Source: Opitutales bacterium (GTDB lineage Bacteria; Verrucomicrobiota; Verrucomicrobiia; Opitutales; Oceanipulchritudinaceae). Taken from it: DNA of 63,833 nucleotides. The stretch lies in the NCBI GenBank assembly GCA_020831525.1, contig JAFIGH010000013.1:1-63833 (forward strand). Direction: 5' to 3'. The notes below the pieces were generated by a model. That model did no database searches, was not told where the DNA came from, and saw only the letters and a list, made by a program, of their open reading frames with translations. Positions within the stretch are counted from its first letter, which is position 1, and the number at the start of each line of letters is the position of its first letter. Both the position numbers and the translations under genes were made by a program. Shown in pieces: positions 48,461 through 63,122 of the stretch.

Positions 48461-48494
48461 AAATTGGTCGGGCTGACTGGATTCGAACCAGCGA
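48461..48494. repeat. Attachment site repeat, left (remnant tRNA-Pro 3' end)
   Basis: A 34-bp sequence identical to 54774-54807. The first part reads aaattggtcgggctgactgg, and it contains the T-arm, acceptor 3' strand and CCA of tRNA-Pro in antisense. The identity stops exactly where the anticodon-arm side of the tRNA would begin, so this is the displaced half left by site-specific integration. Confidence 0.92.
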
Positions 48495-48570
48495 TTCGTA
48501 AAGCACTGTTTTTCATGCACTTGCGTGTGATGTAAGGCGCATAAACGCCGCAAATGAACGAGCGGAAAAC

Positions 48571-48608
48571 ATATTGACTTAGCGGGGATTGGTGTAAGTA
48601 TGGTGTAA
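48571..48608. repeat. Candidate integrase arm-type site, left
   Basis: Contains tgtaagtatggtgtaa (48593-48608), preceded 22 bp earlier by atattgacttag. The same order appears at 54678-54714 at the other end. The 16-bp core itself contains two TGTAA repeats. It lies directly ahead of the integrase start at 48612 and may overlap its promoter, which would allow self-regulation. Confidence 0.6.
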
Positions 48609-48611
48609 GTT

Positions 48612-49775
48612 ATGGCCTACCTCCGCAAAGTCCCTGAGTCCCGTTTCTGGATCGGTTGTTTCCGTGATCGCTTCGGGAAGCTTCACAACCGCAGCACGAA
48701 GATTCCGCACGGCGGAGAAACGCCGAAAGAGCGGGCCGGAAACCGCAGGAAGGCCGCTGCCATCGCGGACGGGTTCGAACGCATCGCACGCGGCGAACTC
48801 AAACGGGAATCGGACATCCGCGAGACCGCCCTTGCACTCGCCGCCATCGCGCGGGGCGAGGAAGTGAAGATGCAGACGGCGCGGGAGTTCCTCAACGAAT
48901 GGGTTGAGCGGCAGGAATCCGCCGGGAAGCCTGACACAACCCTCGCCCGTTACCGGCAGGTGGTCCGGGACTTCATCGCGTCATTGGAAGACGAGGCGGA
49001 CTTTCCGGTTGAGCGCATCGAACCGACCCACGTTCAACGCTACGTGGACGGACTCGCGGCGCGTGGTCTCGCGACAAAGACCCGCTCGAACTGTCTGAAA
49101 ATCCTCCGCGTGCCGTTCAATGAGGCTGTGACCCTCCGGAGACTGACGTTCAACCCGGCGGGCGCGGCAAAGGTGGGCGAGAAAGTGCGGTCCGTTGAAA
49201 AGGGCGCGTTCAGCGCGGACGAACTGCGCGCGATCCTCGCCGCTGCCGCAGACTTCGAACACGGCGCGGAATGGCGCATCGCCATCGCCTTCGGATTCTT
49301 TTGCGGGGCGCGGCTGGGGGATGCCTGTTCGATGCGGTGGGACGGGATCGACCTCGCCGGGCTGAGACTGTCGTTCACTCCGGAGAAGACAAAGGAACGT
49401 ATCGAATTGCCGATGCATCCCCAGCTTGCGGAAATGTTGATGGAAGCGGCGGGAGACGAAAAGGAGGCTGTGACCCCTACCCTTGCCGCAATGGCTGCCA
49501 AGGGCCGCCGCGCCATCCTCTCGAAGCGGTTTCTGACCATCCTCCGGGCCGCCGGGATCGAGACCAAGCAAAGCGGCGCGGGCGTGCGCAAAGTGACGGA
49601 CAAGACGTTCCACAGCCTTCGCCATTCCCTCGCGAGTCACCTTTCCGCGAACAATGTCCCTGAGGCCGTCCGGATGAAGCTGACAGCGCACACCGATCCG
49701 CGCGTTCACCGCAGTTACACCCATGCCGAGTTTGAGCAACTTCGCGCCGCGCTGGGCAATATCGAGACCATCTAA
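48612..49775 (+). CDS. Tyrosine recombinase (integrase)
   Basis: Catalyses integration and excision of the element at tRNA-Pro. The 387-aa protein has an N-terminal arm-binding region (FWIGCFRDRFGKLHNRSTK), a core-binding SAM-like domain (about 87-190, TAREFLNEWVERQESAGKPD) and the catalytic domain. Active-site residues are R234 (CGARLGDACSMRW), K259 (TPEKTKERIELP), H334 and R337 (HSLRHSL), H360 (LTAHTD) and Tyr369 (RSYTHAEF). Its start is 117 bp inside the left attachment repeat, the usual position of a tRNA-targeting integrase. Confidence 0.95.
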   Translation: MAYLRKVPESRFWIGCFRDRFGKLHNRSTKIPHGGETPKERAGNRRKAAAIADGFERIARGELKRESDIRETALALAAIARGEEVKMQTAREFLNEWVERQESAGKPDTTLARYRQVVRDFIASLEDEADFPVERIEPTHVQRYVDGLAARGLATKTRSNCLKILRVPFNEAVTLRRLTFNPAGAAKVGEKVRSVEKGAFSADELRAILAAAADFEHGAEWRIAIAFGFFCGARLGDACSMRWDGIDLAGLRLSFTPEKTKERIELPMHPQLAEMLMEAAGDEKEAVTPTLAAMAAKGRRAILSKRFLTILRAAGIETKQSGAGVRKVTDKTFHSLRHSLASHLSANNVPEAVRMKLTAHTDPRVHRSYTHAEFEQLRAALGNIETI

Positions 49776-49792
49776 CCGCAAACCCATCCACC

Positions 49793-50104
49793 ATGAACGA
49801 CGAACTACAAATCACCCTCACCGGAGATACCGCGCGCGCCGTGCGGATAGCTGCGGACCTGCTGAACGCCGAACCCGGCGAAATCGCCGCCGCCCTGATC
49901 GACAACGGCGATTTGGAGCGGGCCGCGCACGGGGACGCACGGGACTTTGCCGACTTTTGCGAGCGGTTTGCCCTGAGTGAAACGGAGGCGCGGGAGGTTG
50001 CGGCGCGTGCAGGACAGTATTTTGAACGGCGGTTCACCGTCCGACCGCACCACTTCGGGCCATCGTTCACCGTCGGACCGGCTGCGGAGAGGGGGCATGG
50101 ATGA
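49793..50104 (+). CDS. Small unknown protein of the element
   Basis: A 103-aa protein starting 17 bp after the integrase stop. The first 90 residues are predicted helical and acidic (ITLTGDTARAVRIAADLLNAEPGEIAAALIDNGD, in two stretches), then GQYFERRFTV. The opening resembles small regulatory ribbon-helix or antitoxin-like proteins, but no family is assignable. Its stop overlaps the next start in an ATGA. Confidence 0.6.
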   Translation: MNDELQITLTGDTARAVRIAADLLNAEPGEIAAALIDNGDLERAAHGDARDFADFCERFALSETEAREVAARAGQYFERRFTVRPHHFGPSFTVGPAAERGHG

Positions 50105-50670
50105 CCCTTAGGAAGGACGGTCTGTTTATTGATTACACACCCTCGAAGCGCGCCTTGGACTTGGGAGGGACACAGGACATCCGTTCAGTGGAGAACGCGG
50201 AAAGTCTGAATGGCATGATCGCAACTATGAACCACCTTGCGAAACACGGGCCAAAAGATTGCCGAAGGAGCGCGCGCCGTGCCCGTGATCTACTTGCGGA
50301 GTATCGCAAGAACCAGAAGCCCGACGCCGCGTTTTTCGCCGGAATCTATTACGCGCGCACCTTTGCGAACGCCAAAGCATCCGACGCGAAGAGGGGCGCG
50401 CGGTTCTCGCCCGCAGTGGGCCACGCCGCACGAAGGAAGGCACCCCCGAAGCCCCGTAAAGACCCACTCAAGGAAGGGGTCTTGTCGGCTTTTACGGATT
50501 GGCGCGAAGAGGCGGGAGAGTCCGCGCCGATGACCGACTTCTTTCGATGGGTTGAGGTGGAGGGAGAACCCTACGGACTGTTTGCGGACGGCGCGCGCAT
50601 CTGGCAAGCGGGGGATACCTCGGAATGTCCGGGAGTGACCCACCGGGCCGCGCGGAACTGGCTTTCCTGA
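50101..50670 (+). CDS. Unknown protein of the element
   Basis: A 189-aa basic protein whose ATG overlaps the previous stop. It has helical segments (NAESLNGMIATMNHLAKHG, SARRARDLLAEYRKN, AFFAGIYYARTFANAKA) followed by a Lys/Arg/Pro linker (ARRKAPPKPRKDPLKEG) and a compact C-terminal domain (FFRWVEVEGEPYGLFADG). The linker and charge suggest nucleic-acid contact. No homologous family is recognised. Confidence 0.6.
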   Translation: MTLRKDGLFIDYTPSKRALDLGGTQDIRSVENAESLNGMIATMNHLAKHGPKDCRRSARRARDLLAEYRKNQKPDAAFFAGIYYARTFANAKASDAKRGARFSPAVGHAARRKAPPKPRKDPLKEGVLSAFTDWREEAGESAPMTDFFRWVEVEGEPYGLFADGARIWQAGDTSECPGVTHRAARNWLS

Positions 50671-50748
50671 TTTTTTTCCGGAATCCACGCGGAGCATTGA
50701 AGGCTTTCCGCAAACTTTTCAAACGGGGCTGATATGATTCCGCTCCGT

Positions 50749-51051
50749 ATGAAAACCGACACGTTACCGCCGCCCCCTGCCACAAGGGAGATCGAAAACA
50801 ATACGTCCACGTGCGCCGCGTCCCCGATCTGGGTTCGACCGCCGAAACAAAGTGAAGGCGCCTGCCCGCATACAGGACTGAAGCACGCCGCGTTCTACCG
50901 GCACTTTGTCGGCAACCCGCGCATCCGGCAGGCGCGCATGGGCACCGGGCGGGAACGGGGAACACGGTTGCTCTGGCTGCCCGATGTTTATGCGGAAATC
51001 CTCCGGCGCGCCGAAACACAGCGGGAGAGCGAAAAGCGGGGTGAGGAGTGA
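50749..51051 (+). CDS. Small winged-HTH protein, excisionase/AlpA-like
   Basis: From the ATG at 50749 (or 50734) the product is about 100 aa. The C-terminal half, TGLKHAAFYRHFVGNPRIRQAR followed by ERGTRLLWLPDVYAEILRR (given here as separate pieces), has the helix-helix-wing-helix order of small MerR/excisionase-type DNA-binding proteins found in mobile elements. It may regulate the element or assist excision. Its stop overlaps a GTG that could start a very small gene. Confidence 0.6.
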   Translation: MKTDTLPPPPATREIENNTSTCAASPIWVRPPKQSEGACPHTGLKHAAFYRHFVGNPRIRQARMGTGRERGTRLLWLPDVYAEILRRAETQRESEKRGEE

Positions 51052-51203
51052 AGCGTCGACTGAGCGGAACCACCGCCGCCATTCTCCGGCGTCGGCACCC
51101 GGACGAAGACCGGGCGCGCACCCCCGGCGAACTCTGGCAGTTGCTGAAACACGGACGGACCAACAAACGCCGCAGGGAGAGGCGGGGGCATGGCAACGCG
51201 TAA
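51048..51203 (+). CDS. Possible small basic protein, 51 aa
   Basis: A GTG overlaps the previous stop (GTGA) and opens a 51-codon frame that ends inside the next gene. The product is very basic (MKRRLSGTTAAILRRRHPDE, and TNKRRRERRGHGNA at the end). The overlap pattern matches the coupled genes nearby, but there is no family support. Confidence 0.35.
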   Translation: MKRRLSGTTAAILRRRHPDEDRARTPGELWQLLKHGRTNKRRRERRGHGNA

Positions 51204-52119
51204 GGCGAACGAATCAGCCCACCGGGAAAGAAGCATCAAGGAAGGGTATTTCCTCTGGGTGAACAAGGCCATGATGGGCCGGATACGGGGGTATTTCGAT
51301 GGCACCTGCCGATGTGAAGGCGCGATCTCGATTTACGTCGCATTGTGCGAAATCGCATCCGATGAGCAAAGCGAAACCTTTGAGGCGATACAGGGGGAAA
51401 TTGGCATGAAAGCGGGCGTTTCCGCAAAGACAGTTGGGAGGCTGATGCCACAGCTTGAGAAAGCTGGCGTAGTGTCGGTTTTCGAAAGGCCGCTGAAAAC
51501 ACCGAAGATATACACTCTGCTTTCGCCCGATCAGACAAATTGTCCGAACGATCAGACAAATTGTCCGAACGATCAGACAACGAAGATTTCGCCAATGTCT
51601 GACATTATAAGAAAAGAAGAAAGTGAAGAAGAAGGGATAGAAGAGAGCCCCCCGGAGGGCGGGCGGTGCGTCACTGTCTCTCCATCGCTTGAGGATGTTC
51701 TTACGGAGGCGGACCGGGTGTTGATTCCCGCAGACACCGCACGCCGGTTTCACCGCATGAACAACTCCAAGGGCTGGCGGATAGACGGCAAGCCGTTGAA
51801 GAACTGGCGGGCGGCACTGCGGAAGTTCGCACCGGTGGATGTGGAGATGCTTCGGCAGAACTACGACAGCGCGGAGTTCTGGCAGGCCGTCGACGAATAC
51901 GGAGAGGAGACGGGAGACCCTGAGGACATGCGCCGGGCAGCGGCGGTCTTTGTTGAGTGGAACCAGAAACGCGGATGGGAGGACGATGACGGCAACCGCA
52001 TTTTCGACCCGCTGAAGGCGTTCTACGCATGGCATGTCAATGATTGGATGGATTTGGGCGAGCGCGAGGAACCCACACTGCACCGGCAGGACTGGAACGA
52101 CGTTGAGGAGTTCGACTAA
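51190..52119 (+). CDS. Replication-initiator-like HTH protein of the element
   Basis: A 309-aa protein. Residues about 15-105 form a winged-helix domain (GYFLWVNKAMMGRIRGYF, AISIYVALCEIASDEQ, IGMKAGVSAKTVGRLMPQLE, GVVSVFERPLKTPKIYTL), of the type at the start of phage replisome organisers. A linker (about 110-135) is built from a repeated DQTNCPN heptapeptide. The C-terminal part (about 165-295) is helical with RFHRMNNSKGWRIDGKPLKNWRAALRKF, split here as the known motif RIDGKPLKNWRAALRKF, which is common in phage replication proteins. Binding to the 21-bp DNA repeats within its own gene is plausible. Not proven; it could instead be a transcription factor. Confidence 0.6.
   Translation: MATRKANESAHRERSIKEGYFLWVNKAMMGRIRGYFDGTCRCEGAISIYVALCEIASDEQSETFEAIQGEIGMKAGVSAKTVGRLMPQLEKAGVVSVFERPLKTPKIYTLLSPDQTNCPNDQTNCPNDQTTKISPMSDIIRKEESEEEGIEESPPEGGRCVTVSPSLEDVLTEADRVLIPADTARRFHRMNNSKGWRIDGKPLKNWRAALRKFAPVDVEMLRQNYDSAEFWQAVDEYGEETGDPEDMRRAAAVFVEWNQKRGWEDDDGNRIFDPLKAFYAWHVNDWMDLGEREEPTLHRQDWNDVEEFD
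51529..51580. repeat. 21-bp iteron-like tandem repeats inside a coding region
   Basis: Two full copies of a 21-bp unit (beginning gatcagacaaattgtccg) at 51529-51549 and 51550-51570, plus a 10-bp partial copy. Each junction forms an imperfect palindrome TTGTCCGA-ACGA-TCAGACAA. A perfect palindrome AATGTC-T-GACATT follows at 51594-51606. Confidence 0.8.
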
Positions 52120-52637
52120 TGACCGACCTCTACCCACTCCCGTCCGATCTGAAGGCCGTTGATGACCTGCCGCGCCTTGTGATCGACACCCGCGAGCAAA
52201 CGCCGTTTCATTTCCGGCGGCTGGCAGCGGAACTGGGCACGCTCTACACCGGGGACTACTCGATTGCCGGACTCGAAGAACGCTTCGCTATCGAGCGCAA
52301 GAGCGTGTCCGACCTCGTTTCATGCTGCAAAGGCGCGAACCGCGAGCGGTTCCAACGGGAGTTGCACCGGTTGCGGGGATACGACTTCGCGCGCCTGCTG
52401 ATCGTCGGCACGCGCCGGGAACTTGCGGCGGGGGAATACCGCAGCGCGATCACTCCGCAGGCGGTTCTTGCCACCGTGGCAGCGATTGAGGCGCGGTATT
52501 GCCCGGTAGTCTTTGCCGGGGGCGAGCCCGCCGCCGCCGCGTTGGTCGAATCGTGGGCCGCGTGGTTTTGGCGCGAATGGCAACCGGCGCGGAGGCGTCG
52601 GCACTCGACACAGAAGAAATCAATGGCGACAGTATAA
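52119..52637 (+). CDS. ERCC4 (XPF-type) domain nuclease
   Basis: A 172-aa single-domain nuclease of the XPF/Mus81 type. The ERCC4 motif is clear: LVIDTREQTPF, then GDYSIAGLEERFAIERKSVSDLV (here GDYS and ERKSVSDL are the diagnostic pieces), then RERFQRELHRLRGYDFARLLIVG. Such stand-alone proteins occur in phages and mobile elements and cut branched or flap DNA, so a role in replication or excision intermediates is reasonable. The start overlaps the previous stop by one base (TAATG). Confidence 0.85.
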   Translation: MTDLYPLPSDLKAVDDLPRLVIDTREQTPFHFRRLAAELGTLYTGDYSIAGLEERFAIERKSVSDLVSCCKGANRERFQRELHRLRGYDFARLLIVGTRRELAAGEYRSAITPQAVLATVAAIEARYCPVVFAGGEPAAAALVESWAAWFWREWQPARRRRHSTQKKSMATV

Positions 52638-52650
52638 AAAGGAGGGAGAC

Positions 52651-53049
52651 ATGGCGAAACGGATAGCAACGAAACGGATTGCGGAGGCGCTGAGGGCGAA
52701 CGGTGGATTGATCGCTCCCGCCGCCGATGCGCTGAGGTGCGCGCGGTCGACGATTCACCGCAGGATTGCGGAGAAATCCGCCCTTGCTGAGATCCTCGAA
52801 GACGCGCGGGAGGAAACACTCGACCTCGCGGAAAGCGCGTTGCTGCGGAAGATCGAAGAGGGGGACACAGCCTCGATCATCTTCTTTCTGAAGACGCGGG
52901 GCCGGGGCCGGGGATACGGAGCGACTCCGGAAATCGCGGTCCACACCGAGACGCACGTTGCCGCGCCTGCGGTCGACGAAGCACGGATTCGGGAGATCGT
53001 GCGGCAGGCACGGGAAAGCGCGTTGCGTGAACGCGGAGAAAGGCCGTAG
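52651..53049 (+). CDS. Terminase-small-subunit-like HTH protein
   Basis: The ATG at 52651 has a strong GGAGGGA ribosome site 5 nt upstream. The 132-aa product opens with a HTH (RIATKRIAEALRANGGL, IAPAADALRCARSTIHRRIAE), then a helical oligomerisation segment (LAEILEDAREETLDLAESAL) and the motif LRKIEEGDTASIIFFLKTRGRGRGYG, which is typical of a family of phage terminase small subunits. Small terminases recognise packaging sites; no large subunit is present in the element. The homology is by motif only, so a general DNA-binding role is possible. Confidence 0.6.
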   Translation: MAKRIATKRIAEALRANGGLIAPAADALRCARSTIHRRIAEKSALAEILEDAREETLDLAESALLRKIEEGDTASIIFFLKTRGRGRGYGATPEIAVHTETHVAAPAVDEARIREIVRQARESALRERGERP

Positions 53050-53275
53050 GGCGCGCGAGGTTGCGCGAGGATTCGCTTTCGGGCGGTCGGGCGGGTGTAG
53101 GGGGATGCCTATGCGGGGGCGCACGGCAGAACGGGCAAATCCCGCCTTCCCGACCGCGCCGCGCCGGTTTGGTAACGAAACACGGTTCGCGACCACGCCG
53201 CGCACGCGCCGCCAAGGTTCGGAACGGGTGTGAATTTTCTTGCCAACGGTTGGGAAGAATGAACGCTTGTCCGTG

Positions 53276-53464
53276 ATGAAACAGAAAGACCCGTCGGACC
53301 TCTGCGTCCGCAAAAGTGTTTCGCTTCCCCCGGACGTGATCGACGCCGTGAGGCGCGCCGCTGAACAGGAAGACCGCTCGTTCAGCTACGTCGTTTCACG
53401 CGCGATCCGCCGCGACCTCGACCGCGCCGCCGCCGCGAGAAAACGGAAGAGGGGGCGCGCGTGA
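53276..53464 (+). CDS. Ribbon-helix-helix (CopG/Arc-like) DNA-binding protein
   Basis: A 62-aa protein from the ATG at 53276. It has the ribbon VRKSVSLPPDVIDAVRRAAEQ, a turn, then SFSYVVSRAIRRDLDR, and a basic tail (AARKRKRGRA). It probably represses element genes. The 226-bp gap before it (53050-53275) shows no gene. Its stop overlaps the next start (GTGA). Confidence 0.7.
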   Translation: MKQKDPSDLCVRKSVSLPPDVIDAVRRAAEQEDRSFSYVVSRAIRRDLDRAAAARKRKRGRA

Positions 53465-53655
53465 GTCCCGACCGCATACCGATTCAGGAAGCCGCGCGGA
53501 TGCTTGGCTATGCGTCAACCCGTTCCGTCTGGCGTCTTGTGAAGGCGGGCCGGTTGCGGCCGCTCCCGACGCCCTTGCGCCCGCGTCACTTCCGGCGCGA
53601 GGATGTTGCCGCGCTCGCCAACGGCACGCCCCGGCGCGGTCTCTCGATAGACTGA
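53461..53655 (+). CDS. Excisionase-like MerR-type HTH protein
   Basis: A 64-aa protein starting at a GTG that overlaps the preceding stop. IQEAARMLGYASTRSVWRLVKAGRLRPL followed by PRHFRREDVAAL (given in parts: AARMLGY, SVWRLVKAGRL, HFRREDV) is the standard pattern of Xis/helix-turn-helix_17 proteins. It likely directs excision or regulation together with the integrase. Confidence 0.7.
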   Translation: MSPDRIPIQEAARMLGYASTRSVWRLVKAGRLRPLPTPLRPRHFRREDVAALANGTPRRGLSID

Positions 53656-53678
53656 ACGCGCACCCGGAGGAACGAGGC

Positions 53679-54176
53679 ATGGCTGAGATCCCGGAAGAGG
53701 GGGATTGGTTGCATTGGCAGTCGACGCATGCGAATTGGCCGCATCCGGTCGAACATCGGTTGGGGATCGAAGCGTTGGCGATTGACCAGAATCAGGTTTT
53801 GCGGGTGCGTTTGCCGGAGGATCGGACGGATTTGGATGATCGGTGGGGGTTTGTGATTTGGGAGGATCGGCACGCGTTGTCTCAGGGGTTGGTTCAGGCG
53901 ATTACGGCGGATGCGGGACATCTTTCCCCCAACCGCCCGAAGGAAGATCGCAACCGGCTTTGGGTCGACCGTTTCGGGCAACGGGTGGATTCGGATTGGT
54001 GGACGAACGACCCGCAGATTCTGGCGGCAATCTGGCGGTATATCGCGCCGCACAAGTTGGACCCGGACAAGGAGGAAGCGGAGTTGGTCGCGCCGGGGCC
54101 GCGCGAGGTCATTCCGTGGGAAGAGGCGCGGGAGATCACGCGCCGGACACTCGCGGATTACCCGTGGGCGTATTGA
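53679..54176 (+). CDS. Unknown protein of the element, unusual base composition
   Basis: A 165-aa acidic protein rich in Trp (WLHWQSTHANWPHP, WGFVIWEDRHALSQG, WWTNDPQILAAIWRYI). There are no transmembrane segments or signal peptide. The first 240 bp are rich in G and T on the coding strand (many TTG, GAT and GTT codons), unlike neighbouring genes. An AGGAACGAGGC ribosome-site region precedes the ATG. Family unknown. Confidence 0.6.
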   Translation: MAEIPEEGDWLHWQSTHANWPHPVEHRLGIEALAIDQNQVLRVRLPEDRTDLDDRWGFVIWEDRHALSQGLVQAITADAGHLSPNRPKEDRNRLWVDRFGQRVDSDWWTNDPQILAAIWRYIAPHKLDPDKEEAELVAPGPREVIPWEEAREITRRTLADYPWAY

Positions 54177-54190
54177 GCGGGGATTGCAAG

Positions 54191-54246
54191 GGTCGGGACA
54201 AACCCGACCGGAACAGGAACACGAACAGGAACACGAACAGGAAAGG
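54191..54246. repeat. Hairpin and 12-bp tandem repeats before 54254 gene
   Basis: GGTCGGG/CCCGACC forms a hairpin (54191-54209) without a T-run. It is followed by three copies of gaacaggaacac (54211-54246, the last degenerate), immediately before the ribosome site of the next gene. Confidence 0.6.
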
Positions 54247-54253
54247 AAACAGC

Positions 54254-54631
54254 ATGTGGATATTCACCCGACACGGATTTTTCAGCATCGCGCACCGCCC
54301 GGAGATGGACGCGGAACACCCGGTGCAGATTCGCGCGCGCTGCCGTGAAGACCTCGAAGCCCTTCGCGGGCGGTGGGGCGCGTTGCTTGGCGCGCGCCCG
54401 GTGATCGACACGCCGCAGGGGGATTACCCGGCGCGGATGTGCGTGACCGGCGAGACCTTCGAAGCGTTGTTGCGGGAGACCGCGCGGGACCTCGATTACG
54501 GGAACTTCAAAGGCGAGATCGGACGGACGCCGGGACAGGCGGACAAACTCCGCGCCTATCACGACATTTGGGGGACCATGGCCGATTACCAACGGCGCAA
54601 GACCGGACGCGGGCCGTATGGCGCAGGCTGA
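54254..54631 (+). CDS. Small conserved-type unknown protein
   Basis: A 125-aa protein with a GGAAAGGAAAC ribosome site. It opens with MWIFTRHGFFSIAHRPEMD, a pattern I recognise from small bacterial proteins of unknown function beginning MWIxTRYGFFSV, and continues with VQIRARCREDLEALRGRW, YPARMCVTGETFEALL, YGNFKGEIGR and AYHDIWGTMADYQ. It is compact and soluble. It is last in the element, followed by the right arm-type site. Confidence 0.65.
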   Translation: MWIFTRHGFFSIAHRPEMDAEHPVQIRARCREDLEALRGRWGALLGARPVIDTPQGDYPARMCVTGETFEALLRETARDLDYGNFKGEIGRTPGQADKLRAYHDIWGTMADYQRRKTGRGPYGAG

Positions 54632-54677
54632 TCGTTACGGCGCGCACCCGGAGACCGCGCAAGGGGGCCGGAGGGGG

Positions 54678-54714
54678 ATATGGACTTAGGGGAGCTGATG
54701 TAAGTATGGTGTAA
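54678..54714. repeat. Candidate integrase arm-type site, right
   Basis: Carries atatggacttag and, 21 bp later, tgtaagtatggtgtaa (54699-54714), matching the left site in order and nearly in spacing. It lies 60 bp inside the right attachment repeat. Confidence 0.6.
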
Positions 54715-54773
54715 ATTCGGTCCCCATCCGATTCGGTCCAATTCTCTAAACCTCTGCAAACAAGCGCCTTAGA

Positions 54774-54807
54774 AAATTGGTCGGGCTGACTGGATTCGAA
54801 CCAGCGA
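54774..54807. repeat. Attachment site repeat, right (inside intact tRNA-Pro)
   Basis: A 34-bp copy identical to 48461-48494. It forms the 3' part of the complete tRNA-Pro gene, from the T-arm through the CCA end. Confidence 0.92.
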
Positions 54808-55575: not shown

Positions 55576-58500
55576 ATGTCCAACGCCTTCTTCGAACAGC
55601 CGATCCTTAATTCGCCCTACGCCTATCCATCCCGCCACTGGGAACTGGATAAAGACGGACAACCGACGCAGAAGATCGTGGAATCGCGCCGCATCGCGGA
55701 CTTCATCACGCCCATTCCCAAGGCGAGGAAGCGCAAGGGTAAAGGCGAGCAGGCGGAGTTGGCTCTCGACGAGGGGAAAGGGCTTTCGGACAAGGACCAG
55801 AAGTATACGGCAAGCATGATCAACGCGCTTCGAAAGCGTGTTGATGAATGGAGAAGCCTGCCGAACCCCAACGACTGGCGGGTGACTCCGGAAACGGCGC
55901 GGCTACTGCAGCACTGGCGTCACCACGAGTTTCCGTCCATCCGGCCGTTCTTTTGCCAGGTGGAGGCGGTGGAAACGCTTATCTGGCTTACGGAGGTCGC
56001 ACCAAAAGCGGGCAAAGCAGGGAAGGATTTTCTCGATCATTTGGAGAACGCGAGCGTCGCGTCCAATCCAGAGCTTCTGCGCATCGCACTGAAGCTCGCG
56101 ACGGGCGCCGGCAAGACGACGGTCATGGCGATGATCATCGCCTGGCAGACGATCAACGCCGCCCGGCGGCCCGGCAGCAAGCATTTCACGCGGGGCTTTC
56201 TCATTGTCGCGCCGGGGATCACCATCCGCGACCGGTTGCGCGTCCTCCTGCCCAGCGACACCGAGAGCTACTATAAACACCGCGACCTTGTGCCGCCCGA
56301 CATGCTCCCGGATCTGGGCAAAGCGAAGGTCGTCATCAGCAACTACCACGCCTTCAAGCTGCGCGAGCGGATGGATCTGGCCAAAGGCGGCCGCGCGCTC
56401 CTGCAGGGACGCGGCGCGCCCCTGAACACCCTCGAAACAGAAGGGCAGATGGTTCAGCGGGTGATGCCCGACCTCATGGGCATCAAAAACATCCTCGTTC
56501 TCAACGACGAGGCCCACCATTGCTACCGCGAAAAGCCGGGCGAAGACGACACCGCCGATCTCAAGGGCGACGAAAAGAAGGAGGCGCAGAAGAACAACGA
56601 GGCCGCCCGGCTCTGGATCAGCGGCCTCGAGGTGGTGAAGCGCAAGCTGGGCCTCGCGCGGGTCATCGATCTTTCGGCGACACCGTTTTTCCTCCGCGGT
56701 TCGGGCTACGCGGAGGGCACCCTCTTCCCATGGACGGTGAGTGACTTTTCGCTCATGGACGCGATCGAGTGCGGCATCGTCAAACTGCCCCGCGTACCCG
56801 TCACCGACAACATCCCGGGCGGGGAAATGCCAATGTACCGCAATCTATGGGAGCACGTGCGCAAGAAGATGCCGAAGAAGGGTCGCGGCAAAGCCAGCAC
56901 GCTCGACCCGCACAGCGTGCCGACACCGCTGCAGACCGCGCTCGAAGCTCTCTACGGGCACTATGCAAAGACCTTCCGGCTCTGGCAGGAACAGGGCATC
57001 GACGTGCCTCCCTGCTTCATCATCGTGTGCAACAACACCTCGGCGTCGAAGCTGGTCTACGACTATATCTCGGGCTTTTACCGCGAGACCGGCGACGGCT
57101 CGACCCGGTTCGAGCCGGGGCGCCTCCCGCTCTTCCGCAATTTCGACGAGCAAGGCAATGCTCTCGCGCGTCCGAACACCCTCCTTATCGACAGCGAGCA
57201 ACTCGAATCCGGCGACGCTCTCGACAACAATTTCCGCAAGATGGCGGCGGACGAGATCGAACGGTTCCGCTACGAGATCGTGCAGCGCACGGGCAACCGC
57301 GAAGCGGGCGACAAGCTGACCGATCAGGACCTTCTCCGCGAGGTCATGAATACCGTGGGCAAGCCGGGAAAACTCGGCGGCGACATCCGCTGCGTGGTCT
57401 CCGTCTCGATGCTCACCGAGGGCTGGGACGCCAACACGGTGACCCACGTTCTCGGCGTGCGCGCCTTCGGCACCCAGCTCTTGTGCGAACAAGTGATCGG
57501 GCGCGCGCTCCGGCGGCAATCCTACGACCTCAACGAGGACGGTCTTTTCAACGTGGAATACGCCGATGTCCTCGGCATCCCATTCGATTTCAACGCCAAG
57601 CCTGTCGTCGCCCCGCCGCTCCCGCCGCAGCGGACCACACATGTGAAAGCCGTCCGCCCGGAGCGCGATGCGCTCGAGGTCCGCTTTCCCCGCGTCGCGG
57701 GTTACCGTGTGGAACTGCCCGCCGAACGCATCCATGCCGCCTTCACGGAGGACGACATCCTTGAACTCACTCCCGACCTCATCGGGGCGACGCGCAGCCG
57801 CAACGAGGGTATTATCGGTGAGGGCGTGGACCTCAACCTTGATCACACGGACGGGGTACGCGCCTCGACGGTGCTCCTTCACCTCACCACGCACCTGCTC
57901 TACACACATTACCGCGACCCCGGCGACGAGCCCAAACTCCACCTCTTCGGCCAGCTCAAGCGTGTCACACGCGCATGGCTCGACGGCCACCTGCGCTGTA
58001 TGGGCGGCACCTACCCGGCCCAACTCATGTATAAGGAGCTGGCCGACGAGGCCTGCCACCGCATCACCGCCGCGATCACCCGCGCGGGCATGCGCACCGA
58101 CGGCGAGTCCATTGTCAAGGCGCTGCTCGAACCCTACAACACCACGGGCTCGACGGCGTACGTGAACTTCCACACGGCCAAGAGCGGGCTCTACAAGACC
58201 GCGCCCGACAAGTCCCACGTCAACTGGGTCGTGCTCGACAGCGACTGGGAGGCGGAGTTCTGCCGCGTGGCCGAAGGGCATCCGCGCGTACTCGCCTACG
58301 TGAAGAACCACAGCCTCGGCTTCGAGGTTCCCTACCGCATCGGCTCGGAAACCCGCCGCTACCGGCCCGACTTCATCGCCCTTGTCGACGACGGGCGCGG
58401 CCCCGAAGACCCGCTGCACCTCGTCGTCGAGATCAAGGGCTACCGCCGCGAGGACGCGAAAGACAAAAAGTCGACCATGGAAACGTTGTGGGTGCCCGGC

Positions 58501-58662
58501 GTGAACAACCTCGGCAGTTTCGGACGCTGGGACTTCGCCGAATTCACCGATGTCTGGGAGATGGAGGACGATTTCGAGGCGAGAATCGGTGAACTGTTCG
58601 GGACGATGGTGGAAAGAGCAACAAGCCCCCGGGGCGCAAAACCCGTAAGGTCGGCAAAGTGA
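55576..58662 (+). CDS. Type III-like restriction enzyme, helicase-nuclease subunit
   Basis: A 1028-aa superfamily 2 translocase with a nuclease domain. Walker A is ATGAGKTT (175-182), motif Ia follows at FLIVAPGITIRDRL, the DEAH box is VLNDEAHH (311-314), motif III LSATPFF, and motif VI QVIGRALRR. In the C-terminal 100 residues YRPDFIALVDD and LVVEIKGYR (929-955) give a PD-(D/E)xK nuclease. The order resembles Res subunits of type III systems, which cut at a distance from sites using ATP. The C-terminus (ATSPRGAKPVRSAK) extends to the stop. The gene is separated from the methyltransferase by a terminator and a three-gene TA module. Confidence 0.9.
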   Translation: MSNAFFEQPILNSPYAYPSRHWELDKDGQPTQKIVESRRIADFITPIPKARKRKGKGEQAELALDEGKGLSDKDQKYTASMINALRKRVDEWRSLPNPNDWRVTPETARLLQHWRHHEFPSIRPFFCQVEAVETLIWLTEVAPKAGKAGKDFLDHLENASVASNPELLRIALKLATGAGKTTVMAMIIAWQTINAARRPGSKHFTRGFLIVAPGITIRDRLRVLLPSDTESYYKHRDLVPPDMLPDLGKAKVVISNYHAFKLRERMDLAKGGRALLQGRGAPLNTLETEGQMVQRVMPDLMGIKNILVLNDEAHHCYREKPGEDDTADLKGDEKKEAQKNNEAARLWISGLEVVKRKLGLARVIDLSATPFFLRGSGYAEGTLFPWTVSDFSLMDAIECGIVKLPRVPVTDNIPGGEMPMYRNLWEHVRKKMPKKGRGKASTLDPHSVPTPLQTALEALYGHYAKTFRLWQEQGIDVPPCFIIVCNNTSASKLVYDYISGFYRETGDGSTRFEPGRLPLFRNFDEQGNALARPNTLLIDSEQLESGDALDNNFRKMAADEIERFRYEIVQRTGNREAGDKLTDQDLLREVMNTVGKPGKLGGDIRCVVSVSMLTEGWDANTVTHVLGVRAFGTQLLCEQVIGRALRRQSYDLNEDGLFNVEYADVLGIPFDFNAKPVVAPPLPPQRTTHVKAVRPERDALEVRFPRVAGYRVELPAERIHAAFTEDDILELTPDLIGATRSRNEGIIGEGVDLNLDHTDGVRASTVLLHLTTHLLYTHYRDPGDEPKLHLFGQLKRVTRAWLDGHLRCMGGTYPAQLMYKELADEACHRITAAITRAGMRTDGESIVKALLEPYNTTGSTAYVNFHTAKSGLYKTAPDKSHVNWVVLDSDWEAEFCRVAEGHPRVLAYVKNHSLGFEVPYRIGSETRRYRPDFIALVDDGRGPEDPLHLVVEIKGYRREDAKDKKSTMETLWVPGVNNLGSFGRWDFAEFTDVWEMEDDFEARIGELFGTMVERATSPRGAKPVRSAK

Positions 58663-58838: not shown

Positions 58839-58871
58839 CCCCGTGGGCCGCGGTCCACGGGGTCTTTTTTT
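58839..58871 (+). terminator. Rho-independent terminator after the restriction gene
   Basis: A 10-bp stem (CCCCGTGGGC with GTCCACGGGG, one G-T pair, loop CGCG) followed by TCTTTTTTT. It ends the restriction transcript 177-209 bp past the stop and makes the TA-methylase unit a separate transcript. Confidence 0.92.
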
Positions 58872-58939: not shown

Positions 58940-58955
58940 TTCACTTAAAAGTGAA
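58940..58955. promoter_or_regulatory. Candidate TA operator TTCACTT-AA-AAGTGAA
   Basis: Seven-bp inverted repeats around AA, only 2 bp before the toxin ATG at 58958. The position matches autoregulation of HigBA-type operons by the antitoxin. An AT-rich promoter-like tract overlaps it. Confidence 0.6.
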
Positions 58956-58957
58956 CC

Positions 58958-59383
58958 ATGATCCTTAAGACGAAACTCATTCGCGCGGGATCAAGACTCA
59001 CCATCCGCGCTCTGGCAACACCCGGACCGCCCGGAAAAAAGGATCCATGTGAAACCCTCAGCTTCTGCAAGTTCATTCAAAAGACCGACCCGCCGGAGCT
59101 TTCCAAGCTCACGCGGTTGTGGACGGACATGGCGAACAAAGGGGTTCCGAAGAACGACACCAAGTTCAAGAGCCTCTCCGGAACGGGCGGATTGTATGAA
59201 ATCAAAACCACACGGCTCAGAGTCCTGTGCTTTTGGGACCAAGGCAGCCTGATCGTCTGCACCCATGCATTCGTCAAGACCACAGCCAAAACGCCGAAAG
59301 CAGATATCGAAAAGGCCTCGAAGCTGCGCTCCAGCTACTTCGAAGCCAAACAAGCACACTCACTCATCCATGACCACACCTGA
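58958..59383 (+). CDS. HigB-like RelE/ParE-superfamily toxin (Gp49-like)
   Basis: A 141-aa toxin candidate. The core (about 69-132) matches phage-derived Gp49-like/HigB proteins: KFKSLSGTGGLYEIKT, RLRVLCFWDQGSLIV, HAFVKTTAKTPKADIEKASKL, RSSYFE. HigB enzymes cut mRNA at the ribosome. The N-terminal segment (about 1-65, ALATPGPPGKKDPC) is longer than typical. Toxin precedes antitoxin, the HigBA order, and its end overlaps the antitoxin start by 14 bp. An operator palindrome lies directly upstream. Confidence 0.82.
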   Translation: MILKTKLIRAGSRLTIRALATPGPPGKKDPCETLSFCKFIQKTDPPELSKLTRLWTDMANKGVPKNDTKFKSLSGTGGLYEIKTTRLRVLCFWDQGSLIVCTHAFVKTTAKTPKADIEKASKLRSSYFEAKQAHSLIHDHT

Positions 59384-59813
59384 CACCCCGTTTAAAGAAT
59401 TCGATTCCTTCGAGGAGTTGTTCGCCCAAGCCGAGCAGCGCCTGGACTATCATGTCGAAGGTGCGAAGAACGAGTTCACTGAGCAAATCGTGGCACGCAT
59501 GGAGGATCTCGGACTCTCCAAATCCGAACTCGCTGAAAAGATGGACGTCAAGCGGTCCTTTGTCACGCGCCTCCTGAGCGGAAACAACAATTTCACCCTT
59601 GAGACAATGGTCCGTATCGCGCGGAGCCTCGATTGCTCCCTGCGCTCACACCTCGAACCAAAGGGCTTCGAAGCCCGATGGGTGAATGTAATGAAAACAG
59701 AATTCGCACACGGAGAGACCTGCCCGAAAGCAGCAGACTTCGCGGATGCGAAGTTTGACACCTTTAAAATCCGTTCATCCCCTGCGACACGCAATGAAGC
59801 CGTCACCGCTTGA
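59370..59813 (+). CDS. HigA-like XRE-family antitoxin with C-terminal extension
   Basis: From the ATG at 59370 (MTTPDTPFKEFDSF), 147 aa. The HTH is IVARMEDLGLSKSELAEKM, then VKRSFVTRLLSGNNNFTLETMVRIARSLDC, listed here in pieces: LGLSKSELAEKM, SFVTRLLSG, TLETMVRIA. It neutralises the toxin and represses the operon. About 50 residues follow the HTH (HLEPKGFEARWVNVM, CPKAADFADAKFDTFKIRSS), a candidate chaperone-addiction tail that would make antitoxin stability depend on the SecB-like protein. Its stop overlaps the SecB-like gene by 20 bp. Confidence 0.82.
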   Translation: MTTPDTPFKEFDSFEELFAQAEQRLDYHVEGAKNEFTEQIVARMEDLGLSKSELAEKMDVKRSFVTRLLSGNNNFTLETMVRIARSLDCSLRSHLEPKGFEARWVNVMKTEFAHGETCPKAADFADAKFDTFKIRSSPATRNEAVTA

Positions 59814-60255
59814 ACTCGAACGCCACTTTTTCCGCCGCATCCATGTGGACGCTCAGAAAGCGCCCGTGCCGGAACACGAAAACATATTCGATTGCTCGAT
59901 CGAATACGGGAAGGATCTGAACAATCCGCGTCGATTTCGTCTCTTGCTTCGTCTGCGCCTCAAGGGAGACTCGGACGAACGACCCGCCTATCTCGCCGAG
60001 TTCGAGATTCTTGGATTCTTCCGCGTCGAGGATGCATGGCCTGAGGAGAAGTGCGAGGATCTTGTCGCCGTCAATGGACCCTCTCTGCTGTTTGGCGCCA
60101 TCCGGGAGATGCTCCTCAACCTCACCGGACGCATGGAGCACGGCCCCGTGAATCTGCGGACGGTCAGCTTCTCCGCCACACCCGATCCGGCGGCACAAAA
60201 AGCCGCCGCAAAGCGACTTCGCAAGACGGCCCGCTCACCGGCCCGAAAAGACTGA
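59794..60255 (+). CDS. SecB-like chaperone of a toxin-antitoxin-chaperone module
   Basis: A 153-aa protein from the ATG at 59794 (MKPSPLELERHFF). Its pattern follows SecB: an N-terminal strand pair (IFDCSIEYGKD), RFRLLLRLRLKG, AYLAEFEILGFFRV in place of the SecB strand ending GGIF, a helix with LVAVNGPSLLFGAIREMLLNLTGR (compare SecB PNILFPYARE) and a final strand VNLRTVSFSA. The tail is basic (AAAKRLRKTARSPARKD). In mycobacterial TAC modules a SecB-like chaperone protects HigA from degradation. The overlap with the antitoxin gene and the 2-nt distance to the methylase ATG indicate coupled translation. Confidence 0.72.
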   Translation: MKPSPLELERHFFRRIHVDAQKAPVPEHENIFDCSIEYGKDLNNPRRFRLLLRLRLKGDSDERPAYLAEFEILGFFRVEDAWPEEKCEDLVAVNGPSLLFGAIREMLLNLTGRMEHGPVNLRTVSFSATPDPAAQKAAAKRLRKTARSPARKD

Positions 60256-60257
60256 CC

Positions 60258-63122
60258 ATGGGAAACCCGCCGCCATCCCGCCCAATGCCCAAACGCCTGA
60301 AACCCTCCGCACCGCGCAAACAAGTCGACAGCCTCGTCCACGAGGACGCGAAGCGCCGCCATATCCCCACCGCCGAGCTGGAGTCCATTGTCGACAAAGA
60401 GGCGCAGTCACCCGTCCGCCTCGCCTACGAGCGGCGCAACCCCGACCTCGATCCCCAGCTCGTCTGGCGCGGCAAGGATGAGCAGGACTGGTCGGACCTC
60501 GTCGTCAACGCGCCCCCGCTCTACATTCAGGAAAAAGTCCACCCGAAGGTCCTCATCGAGGATCTCCTGCGGCAGAGCGAACGCGCCGCCGAGAGCGCCG
60601 ACCCGCAGCTCGACCTCTTCGGGGACTTCAACGGGCTCCCCAGCGAGGCCGCCAAGACGGAGTTTTACCAGCACGACGCCAACTGGACGAACCGCATGAT
60701 CCTCGGCGACAGCCTCCAGGTGATGGCCTCGCTCGCCGAGCGCGAAGGCCTGCGCGGGCAGGTGCAGTGCATCTACCTCGACCCGCCCTACGGCATAAAA
60801 TTCAACTCCAATTTCCAGTGGTCCACCACTTCGCGCGACGTCAAGGACGGCAACCAATCCCACATCACGCGCGAGCCCGAACAGGTCAAAGCCTTCCGCG
60901 ACACATGGCGTGACGGCATCCACTCCTACCTCACCTACCTCCGCGACCGGTTGACGGTGGCGCGGGATTTACTGACGGAATCAGGGTCGATTTTCGTGCA
61001 GATCGGCGATGAGAACGTCCACCGCGTACGCGCGCTCATGGATGAGGTGTTTGGGGCAGAAAACTGCGTTGGCTCGATTGTTTTCGTGAAAACTTCCAGT
61101 TCGACCAGCGACTTTTTGGGGCCGACCTTTGATACGCTTCTTTGGTATGCAAAAAGGAAGGAGGCTCTGAAATACCGCAAGTGCCTTATGAAGAAGGCCC
61201 CCGGTCAAAAGGGTGGAACAGGCTACAAAAGCGTCCAACTCGCCGACCTCAGGCGCAGACCTCTAACTAGGGCTGAGGTTGATGAGCCTTCTTTGCTGCC
61301 GAGCGGATCAAAAATCTACTTCCGCGATAATCTAACGAGTCAAAGTGTAGGCCGCGACAAAGGTGAAGGAGCATCTTCTTGGTTTGGTGTAGAATTTGAG
61401 GGTCAACTGGTCAAACCGTCACTTTCAGTTCGTTGGAAGACCAATAAACAAGGCTTTGATCGGCTCATTAAGGGAAATAGAGTGGAAGCCAGTTCGGGAA
61501 AGAACCTTGGGTATATCCGGTTTCTTGATGACTACCCTGTGTTTGAACTGACAGACGTCTGGACAGACACTCTTGGACAGAATCAGTTCGGCGGACCAAA
61601 AACGTATGTTGTCCAAACAGCGCTTTCGGCGGTCCAACGCTGCCTCCTCATGGCCACCGACCCCGGCGACCTCGTCCTCGACCCGACCTGCGGTTCGGGG
61701 ACGACGGCCTACGTGGCGGAGCAGTGGGGACGGCGCTGGATCACGATCGACACCTCGCGGGTCGCGCTTGCCTTGGCCCGCGCGCGCATCATGGGGGCGC
61801 GCTATCCCTACTACCTCCTCGCCGACAGCCCCGAGGGCCGGGCAAAAGAAGCGGCGCTGACGCGCACCGCGCCGCCCGAAGGCCGCTGTCACGGCAACGT
61901 GCGGCAGGGCTTCGTCTACGAGCGCGTGCCCCACATCACCCTCAAGTCCATCGCGAACAACGCGGAGATCGACGTCATCTGGGAGGGATTCCAGCCGAAA
62001 CTGGAATCCCTGCGAAAGCAGCTCAACGCTGCATTGGATCAAAAACGGGAGGAATGGGAAATCCCGCGGGAAGCCGGGAAGGACTGGCCGAAGCCAGCCC
62101 GCGAACTGCACGGCGAGTGGTGGAAGCAACGCATCGCGCGGCAGAAGGAGATAGACGCCTCCATCGCGGCCAAGGCCGATCACGAATACCTCTACGACAA
62201 GCCCTACGAGGACAAAAAACGCGTGCGCGTCGCGGGGCCCTTCACGGTCGAAAGCCTCTCGCCCCACCGCACCCTCGGGGTGGACGAGAACGACGACCTC
62301 ATTGATCCGCTCGTCCTCGCCTCCCGGCAGGAGAACTACGGCGAACCCCAACAGGACTTTGCCACCATGGTCCTCGAAAACCTCCGCACCGCCGGGGTGC
62401 AGCAGGCGCACCGCGAAGACCGCATCCACTTCACCAGCCTCGCGCCATGGCCCGGCGAACTCGTCTGTGCCGAAGGGCGCTACACCGAAGGCGAGGGCGG
62501 CAAGGAAAAGCGCGCGGGCATCTTCATCGGCCCCGAGTTCGGCACCGTCGCCCGCGCCGACCTTGTGGCCGCCGCACGCGAGGCCGGCGACGCCGATTTC
62601 GACGTCCTCATTGCCTGCGCCTTCAACTACGAGGCGCGCACGACCGAGTTCGAAAAACTCGGCCGCCTCCCCGTTCTCAAGGCCCGCATGAACGCCGACC
62701 TGCACATGGCCGAAGAACTCAAAAACACCGGGTCGGGCAACCTCTTCGTCATCTTCGGCGAACCGGACATCGACCTGCTCACCGACCCCGACGGCCGCCT
62801 GCGGGTCAAGGTGAACGGGATCGACGTCTTCAAGCCGCACCTCGGGAGAGTGGAATCAAGCAACACCGATGAAATCGCGTGCTGGTTTGTCGACACCGAC
62901 TACAACGAAGAGAGCTTCTTCGTGCGCCACGCCTACTTCCTCGGAGCCAACGACCCCTACAAGAGCCTCAAAAACACCCTCAAAGCCGAAATCGACGAAG
63001 ACGCTTGGGAAACGCTGCACAGCGATACTTCAAGACCGTTTGAAAAGCCTGCCTCCGGGCGTATCGCTGTCAAAGTCATCAATCATCTCGGGGATGAGGT
63101 AATGAAGGTGTTTCGCGTGTGA
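60258..63122 (+). CDS. Type III-like DNA adenine N6-methyltransferase (Mod)
   Basis: A 954-aa methyltransferase from the ATG at 60258 (MGNPPPSRPMPK), chosen because it begins 2 nt after the SecB-like stop. Beta-class order: motif IV DPPY at 175-178 (YLDPPYGIKFNSNF) precedes the SAM-binding motif I DPTCGSGTT at 475-483. The region between them (about 265-460) is the target-recognition segment and is visibly AT-richer than the rest. The C-terminal half continues with PHRTLGVDENDDLIDP and IFGEPDIDLLTDPDG, as in Mod subunits that interact with the helicase partner. It would methylate adenine at the recognition site, protecting host DNA from the nuclease at 55576. Confidence 0.92.
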   Translation: MGNPPPSRPMPKRLKPSAPRKQVDSLVHEDAKRRHIPTAELESIVDKEAQSPVRLAYERRNPDLDPQLVWRGKDEQDWSDLVVNAPPLYIQEKVHPKVLIEDLLRQSERAAESADPQLDLFGDFNGLPSEAAKTEFYQHDANWTNRMILGDSLQVMASLAEREGLRGQVQCIYLDPPYGIKFNSNFQWSTTSRDVKDGNQSHITREPEQVKAFRDTWRDGIHSYLTYLRDRLTVARDLLTESGSIFVQIGDENVHRVRALMDEVFGAENCVGSIVFVKTSSSTSDFLGPTFDTLLWYAKRKEALKYRKCLMKKAPGQKGGTGYKSVQLADLRRRPLTRAEVDEPSLLPSGSKIYFRDNLTSQSVGRDKGEGASSWFGVEFEGQLVKPSLSVRWKTNKQGFDRLIKGNRVEASSGKNLGYIRFLDDYPVFELTDVWTDTLGQNQFGGPKTYVVQTALSAVQRCLLMATDPGDLVLDPTCGSGTTAYVAEQWGRRWITIDTSRVALALARARIMGARYPYYLLADSPEGRAKEAALTRTAPPEGRCHGNVRQGFVYERVPHITLKSIANNAEIDVIWEGFQPKLESLRKQLNAALDQKREEWEIPREAGKDWPKPARELHGEWWKQRIARQKEIDASIAAKADHEYLYDKPYEDKKRVRVAGPFTVESLSPHRTLGVDENDDLIDPLVLASRQENYGEPQQDFATMVLENLRTAGVQQAHREDRIHFTSLAPWPGELVCAEGRYTEGEGGKEKRAGIFIGPEFGTVARADLVAAAREAGDADFDVLIACAFNYEARTTEFEKLGRLPVLKARMNADLHMAEELKNTGSGNLFVIFGEPDIDLLTDPDGRLRVKVNGIDVFKPHLGRVESSNTDEIACWFVDTDYNEESFFVRHAYFLGANDPYKSLKNTLKAEIDEDAWETLHSDTSRPFEKPASGRIAVKVINHLGDEVMKVFRV

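Follow-up and report, generated by a model that had tools for sequence, protein, structure and literature searches.

Organization of the locus

The window, by which we mean the whole 63,833-nucleotide stretch of Opitutales DNA analysed here, carries on its forward strand at 58958-60255 three overlapping genes that encode a HigB toxin of the Gp49 family (141 aa; 58958..59383), a HigA antitoxin (147 aa; 59370..59813) and a 153-aa SecB-like chaperone, HigC (59794..60255). The genes are adjacent and co-oriented in the order toxin-antitoxin-chaperone (TAC), with overlaps of 14 nt between toxin and antitoxin and 20 nt between antitoxin and chaperone. On the 5' side, in the same orientation, lies res (55576..58662), which encodes the helicase-nuclease subunit of a type III-like restriction-modification (R-M) system of the BPTD_3080 family (NF046055, PF04851 and motifs); on the 3' side mod (60258..63122, also forward), a DNA methyltransferase gene recognized by PADLOC PDLC03632, PF01555 and its DPPY and DPTCGSGT motifs, starts with an ATG at 60258. 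Placement of the three genes between restriction and methylation functions, as claimed in a preliminary description of this DNA, is thus borne out. Pfam, NCBIfam and PADLOC give one consistent picture for all five genes, and the layout, in which complete reading frames are coupled by overlaps and the family matches are significant, is far above chance expectation. Since order, overlaps, families and predicted fold all agree with the description's proposal of a TAC module, we regard 58958-60255 as very probably a HigB-HigA-SecB unit, an identification made from sequence.

Both flanking genes look intact, judging from motifs and family scores, and the activity of their products is a prediction. 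Res scores 1346 bits against NF046055, retains Walker A, DEAH and PD...ExK motifs in translation and is 77-78% identical to relatives in Puniceicoccaceae; Mod scores 1657 bits against the PADLOC type III methyltransferase model PDLC03632.

A 6.3-kb integrative element (48461-54807), with an integrase gene (48612-49775), a replication initiator, an ERCC4 nuclease and an excisionase-like gene, stops just 5' of the R-M locus, which lies outside it. Its boundaries, at 48461 and 54774, are two copies of a 34-bp direct repeat that spans the 3' end of tRNA-Pro; insertion of the TAC together with this element was considered and rejected, as the element ends at tRNA-Pro. No att-like repeat of tRNA-Val was found downstream.

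Toxin and antitoxin

The toxin matches PF05973 (Gp49) at 53.5 bits against a cut-off of 23.9 and, among solved structures, HigB of PDB 6af3 (7e-4). Its alignment retains an F-x-K-x-x-x-K pattern and an invariant Arg, which fit the key residues F93, K95, K99 and R77 of HigB in a TAC (PMC9098466). A Gp49 domain with the catalytic basic residues of the HigB/Gp49 family is thereby present at the sequence level, and by family assignment the protein is predicted to be an mRNase of BECR fold.

The antitoxin matches HTH_3 at 41.2 bits and scores under the cut-off of the HigA equivalog. Its helix-turn-helix domain (residues 43-92) is followed, as in relatives, by a tail of about 50 residues, a putative chaperone addiction domain (ChAD), that ends in -EAVTA. 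Alignment of this tail with those of relatives gave no recognizable or alignable ChAD-binding motif; ChAD sequences are non-homologous, so that chaperone binding is not readable from tail sequence.

The extreme C-terminus was compared across 36 TAC loci (L099-L191) with antitoxins of three families. The final residue is Ala in 30 of the 36, and the last two fit [ASTG]A in 28, against background frequencies for frame ends of 12.6% and 5.5%, respectively. Where the antitoxin overlaps the conserved S-P-L codons of the chaperone, as it does in the window, small residues are forced by the frame, so the -TA end of the window antitoxin, whose last residues overlap the chaperone start, is by itself weak evidence; of the 13 loci in which the two genes overlap by at most 4 nt, 9 still have an antitoxin with AA or SA as its last residues. 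HigA1 of Mycobacterium tuberculosis has a C-terminal Val-Ala ClpX degron adjoining its chaperone-binding site (PMC8165232). Taken with this precedent, the antitoxin ends support a shared mechanism in which the chaperone shields a degron, and by analogy this may extend to the window. As an observation in its own right, antitoxins of all three families overwhelmingly end in Ala-Ala or similar residues, resembling ssrA-like ClpX degrons.

The SecB-like chaperone

The 153-aa protein matches PF02556 (SecB) at 33.5 bits (cut-off 26), PADLOC PD-T4-9_C weakly (18 bits) and the secB equivalog model TIGR00809 at 25.1 bits, far below its cut-off of 102.8; the thresholds of the PRK05751 models are likewise missed. 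A search of solved structures with the single sequence was weak, with Rv1957 ranking first, and a profile built from 15 relatives matched solved SecB at 2e-10. The AlphaFold model, of moderate confidence (mean pLDDT 69.7) and derived from an alignment of three sequences, has four strands, a long helix and a second helix. All of its top 18 Foldseek matches are chains of the Rv1957-ChAD complex (5mtw) or of SecB, each with probability 1.00, and VIA-align gave Z scores of 8.2 for 5mtw_D (rmsd 3.9 over 113 residues) and 8.1 for 1qyn_D (rmsd 4.0 over 123 residues). A Z score of about 8 by itself is not decisive for a SecB fold; here sequence and predicted fold agree. The preliminary description held the protein to be SecB-like, a claim at risk from any other fold, and the predicted fold instead matches both 5mtw and SecB.

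This gene is the sole PF02556 match in the source genome, which is rated 100% complete, and SecB matches occur in 18 of 388 genomes of the phylum. Such rarity fits the report that most SecB proteins found outside the alpha, beta and gamma proteobacteria are associated with toxin-antitoxin (TA) systems (PMC4257090).

Predicted control signals and probable transcription units

Between res and the toxin gene, a predicted intrinsic terminator, a forward-strand hairpin at 58839..58862 whose 10 bp stem has 8 G-C pairs and precedes a T run, was the top candidate of a terminator scan, with a fold z-score of only -1.6. Because of this strong terminator-like hairpin, the TAC probably does not just share the transcript of res. 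Beyond it, a perfect palindrome, TTCACTTAAAAGTGAA (58940..58955), stops 2 bp 5' of the toxin ATG; the window contains one copy (0.09 expected, allowing up to two mismatches), which is also the single site across the 5.3 Mb genome. A related palindrome, roughly TTAACYTATARGTTAA, lies 17-20 nt 5' of the toxin start in eight of nine HigBAC loci, and these comparative data are good evidence that the site is a probable operator for HigA. At the other end of the unit, mod begins 2 bp past the chaperone stop, which suggests that mod is probably transcribed together with the TAC, in a unit distinct from that of res, with an internal mod promoter as a possible addition.

An accessory slot between res and mod

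Eighty loci with BPTD_3080-type res genes (L002-L081) were fetched, and a recognizable mod gene lay downstream in 70. The gap between the two genes is bimodal, at 100 bp or less in 24 pairs, whose slots are empty, and at 350 bp or more in the other 46, whose slots hold varied toxin or defence genes. The cargo families comprise SLFN/AlbA-RecG ATPases, DUF4062, ORF6N, Fic, Bro-N, NYN, GmrSD, HepT-MNT, DUF4258, TumE and PIN, and many of the cargos match PADLOC candidates. The main cargo frame runs in the direction of the R-M genes in 37 of 45 loci with such a frame, often overlapping res by 4 nt. In this R-M family the res-mod gap is, in itself, a variable accessory slot occupied mostly by co-directional toxin or defence genes. 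The TAC of the window was found in none of the 70 related pairs, and the 80 fetched res loci gave no match to its toxin, antitoxin or chaperone at E 1e-3.

This variety of cargo indicates that the window TAC is one passenger of a general accessory slot, and the R-M system does not require it, because relatives hold other cargo or none. Conserved co-occurrence of SecB-type TACs with res and mod, the expectation raised in the preliminary description, therefore fails for this R-M family; what stands is recurrence of such modules in or beside other R-M-type systems.

TACs in or beside other restriction-type systems

Relatives of the chaperone were sought in the phylum of the window and in other groups, and their neighbourhoods were read, with cases verified by Pfam except for one annotated record. 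R-M-type genes flank the TAC on both sides in six further loci: a PLD-helicase and a type ISP methylase around MqsRA-SecB (L113); a methyltransferase and DrmA-DrmB of DISARM, with an IS element, around MqsRA-SecB (L116); hsdR and hsdS before, and hsdM after, MqsRA-SecB (L164); a helicase before MqsRA-SecB and a reverse transcriptase with DUF1156 after it (L179); DUF1156 and KAP before HigA-SecB, with DUF499 and GmrSD following (L186); and, in a set of viral contigs, a DUF1156 methylase and a PLD-SNF2 helicase around MqsRA-SecB (L258). One-sided cases include hsdR-M-S followed by HigBAC (L099), the nearest complete TAC relative of the window (52% antitoxin and 39% chaperone identity), three loci with R-M-type genes on one side (L106, L166 and L110) and one with two helicases (L183). 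With the window included, the layout thus recurs across type III-like, type I, type ISP, DISARM and DUF1156 systems.

Proximity was scored when at least one of the two closest large genes on either side was of R-M type. Gp49 loci that lack a chaperone, taken from the same genomes, served as controls; L258, found later, was left out of these counts. R-M-type genes lie beside 11 of 37 TACs and 3 of 31 controls (one-sided Fisher p 0.039; 10 of 36, p 0.058, without the window), and on both flanks of 6 of 37 and 0 of 31 (p 0.021; 0.039 without the window), a modest enrichment drawn from small, non-independent samples with not quite identical detection, which one extra control locus would undo.

Several loci are of interest in themselves. 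In the type I operon at L164:2090-12356 the TAC is accompanied by Xre-type and PIN-like genes between hsdS and hsdM, and the same genome (G388) also has a BPTD_3080 system with other cargo (L002). By eye, L107:8547-9698, from the phylum of the window, is a probable HicA-HicB-SecB TAC, with a third antitoxin family partnered by SecB, and L185:1046-3630 shows antitoxin-like and SecB-like genes directly 5' of RloA/RloB-looking genes on a short contig that hides the toxin side. SecB-like genes of TAC type at L171:9639-10100 and L172:9900-10304 have no visible TA pair and are solitary or decayed. Phage records contained no close relatives of the chaperone, plasmid records contained two distant ones, of which one lies inside DISARM, and viral contigs three distant ones; of three more scans, two found no relative and one retained no locus. 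A HigBAC module at L259:4878-6252 (and L260) sits beside tail and replication genes on a P2-like-looking phage contig, with its own TTAAC palindrome and an antitoxin C-terminus of SIAA.

Proposed function and alternative explanations

The best-supported overall explanation, to which we assign a probability of roughly 0.7, is that a chaperone-addicted HigBAC module occupies the res-mod accessory slot as a layer of translation arrest beside restriction. By extension from characterized TACs, HigA, as repressor, would bind the palindrome, and HigC would hold the HigA tail and shield HigA from ClpXP; diversion of HigC by phage proteins or misfolded clients would expose HigA to degradation, and the freed HigB would cut ribosome-bound mRNA and stop growth. 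For this locus, arrest may then back up restriction as a second line that either wins time for the nuclease or aborts the infection, and mod, on the probably shared TAC transcript, would be derepressed as well once HigA is lost. Precedents in trans are offered by a plasmid-borne MqsRAC TAC that acts in concert with McrBC against phage T2 in Escherichia coli (PMC10783111) and by the phage-triggered CmdTAC (PMC11618068). HigBAC is likewise phage-triggered, and the known trigger of one such module is a phage structural protein (PMC11980606). We put the odds of cooperation between TAC and R-M, as layers of one defence at this locus, at about even.

The main rival, tentative but deserving serious weight, is that the TAC is an addiction cassette hitchhiking in a permissive slot, selfish or stabilizing cargo that prevents loss of the locus, by post-segregational toxicity, with no response to phage. 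It draws on the many unrelated cargos that the slot accepts and on the unconserved pairing of TAC with BPTD_3080 R-M genes, as well as on a Doc-Phd-like pair within the pneumococcal type I tvr locus for which TA function was not found (PMC6265443). The cargo of the slot is, however, strongly biased toward defence and co-directional with the R-M genes, TACs active against phage are known, and the embedded DarTG2 (PMC12255303) and PrrC (PMC12707154) do defend.

PrrC, as guard of EcoprrI (PMC12707154), also suggests a role in which the TAC would register that restriction has failed or been inhibited: anti-restriction proteins, or loss of Res or Mod, would divert the chaperone or halt antitoxin synthesis and so free HigB. 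Such a guard is possible, though we consider it unlikely; the two-sided flanking by R-M-type genes in seven loci (window counted), of differing R-M types, and the probable inclusion of mod in the TAC transcript are in its favour, but variation of both R-M types and toxin families among loci makes a shared specific protein sensor unlikely, and the known trigger of one HigBAC is a structural protein of phage. Present evidence does not separate selfish passenger, PrrC-like guard and cooperating layer.

Two further readings concern the chaperone gene. That the locus is an ordinary HigBA pair, with a third gene that is decayed or merely co-transcribed and a dispensable chaperone, would accord with the unrecognizable ChAD-binding motif in the HigA tail; it is very improbable given an intact, overlapping frame and relatives that keep the three-gene order, the N-terminal MKPSPL and core residues of the chaperone. 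That the 153-aa protein is the export SecB of this genome, placed here by chance, gains from its being the sole PF02556 match but is scarcely credible: canonical export SecB was rejected on the missed equivalog cut-offs, the gene overlaps that of the antitoxin, and a housekeeping role is not expected in a phylum where SecB matches are absent from 370 of 388 genomes.

Beyond the window module itself, recurrence of TACs inside unrelated DNA-cutting systems suggests, short of proof, cooperation between these two types of defence. A stronger generalization, that TACs are a recurrent, independently acquired and functionally coupled third component of R-M-type defence, a protein-folding sensor that arrests translation once the DNA-cutting layer is overrun or inhibited and that in the window would place the methylase under antitoxin control, is in our judgement rather doubtful.

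Comparison with known systems

Within the BPTD_3080 family, the locus shares an intact res and mod and a variable gap between them, and it differs from the 70 other inspected pairs in holding this TAC. With the TAC of M. tuberculosis (HigB1-HigA1-SecB-TA, Rv1955-Rv1957) it shares gene order, HigB and HigA families, an antitoxin tail with small hydrophobic C-terminal residues and the SecB fold (5mtw ranks first), whereas the chaperones are only about 20% identical, the window has no recognizable W-x-R ChAD motif, and its module sits inside an R-M operon. The phage-defence TACs of E. coli (HigBAC, MqsRAC and CmdTAC/PD-T4-9) have the same three-gene organization; CmdT, by contrast, is an ADP-ribosyltransferase, placement between res and mod is not described for these systems in the literature searched, and the window module is known from its sequence. 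DarTG2 of EPEC, PrrC of EcoprrI and the Campylobacter rlo/mlo genes are likewise defence or TA cargo nested in type I R-M loci, but the TA of the window is of chaperone-dependent type in a type III-like system, has an operator-like site of its own and is directly followed by mod, not res.

Here the TAC and the R-M pair each add a new member to a family already known, and their composite layout appears undescribed: TACs nested within R-M systems are unreported in the literature searched, which covered few subscription papers, and priority is not established. The window and at least six other loci place a TAC physically within an R-M system, and between them they span R-M types that are unrelated and toxins of two families. 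If functional, this arrangement would offer a natural and genetically tractable way to ask whether halting translation gives restriction more time to act on DNA, and whether an antitoxin regulates the protective methylase.
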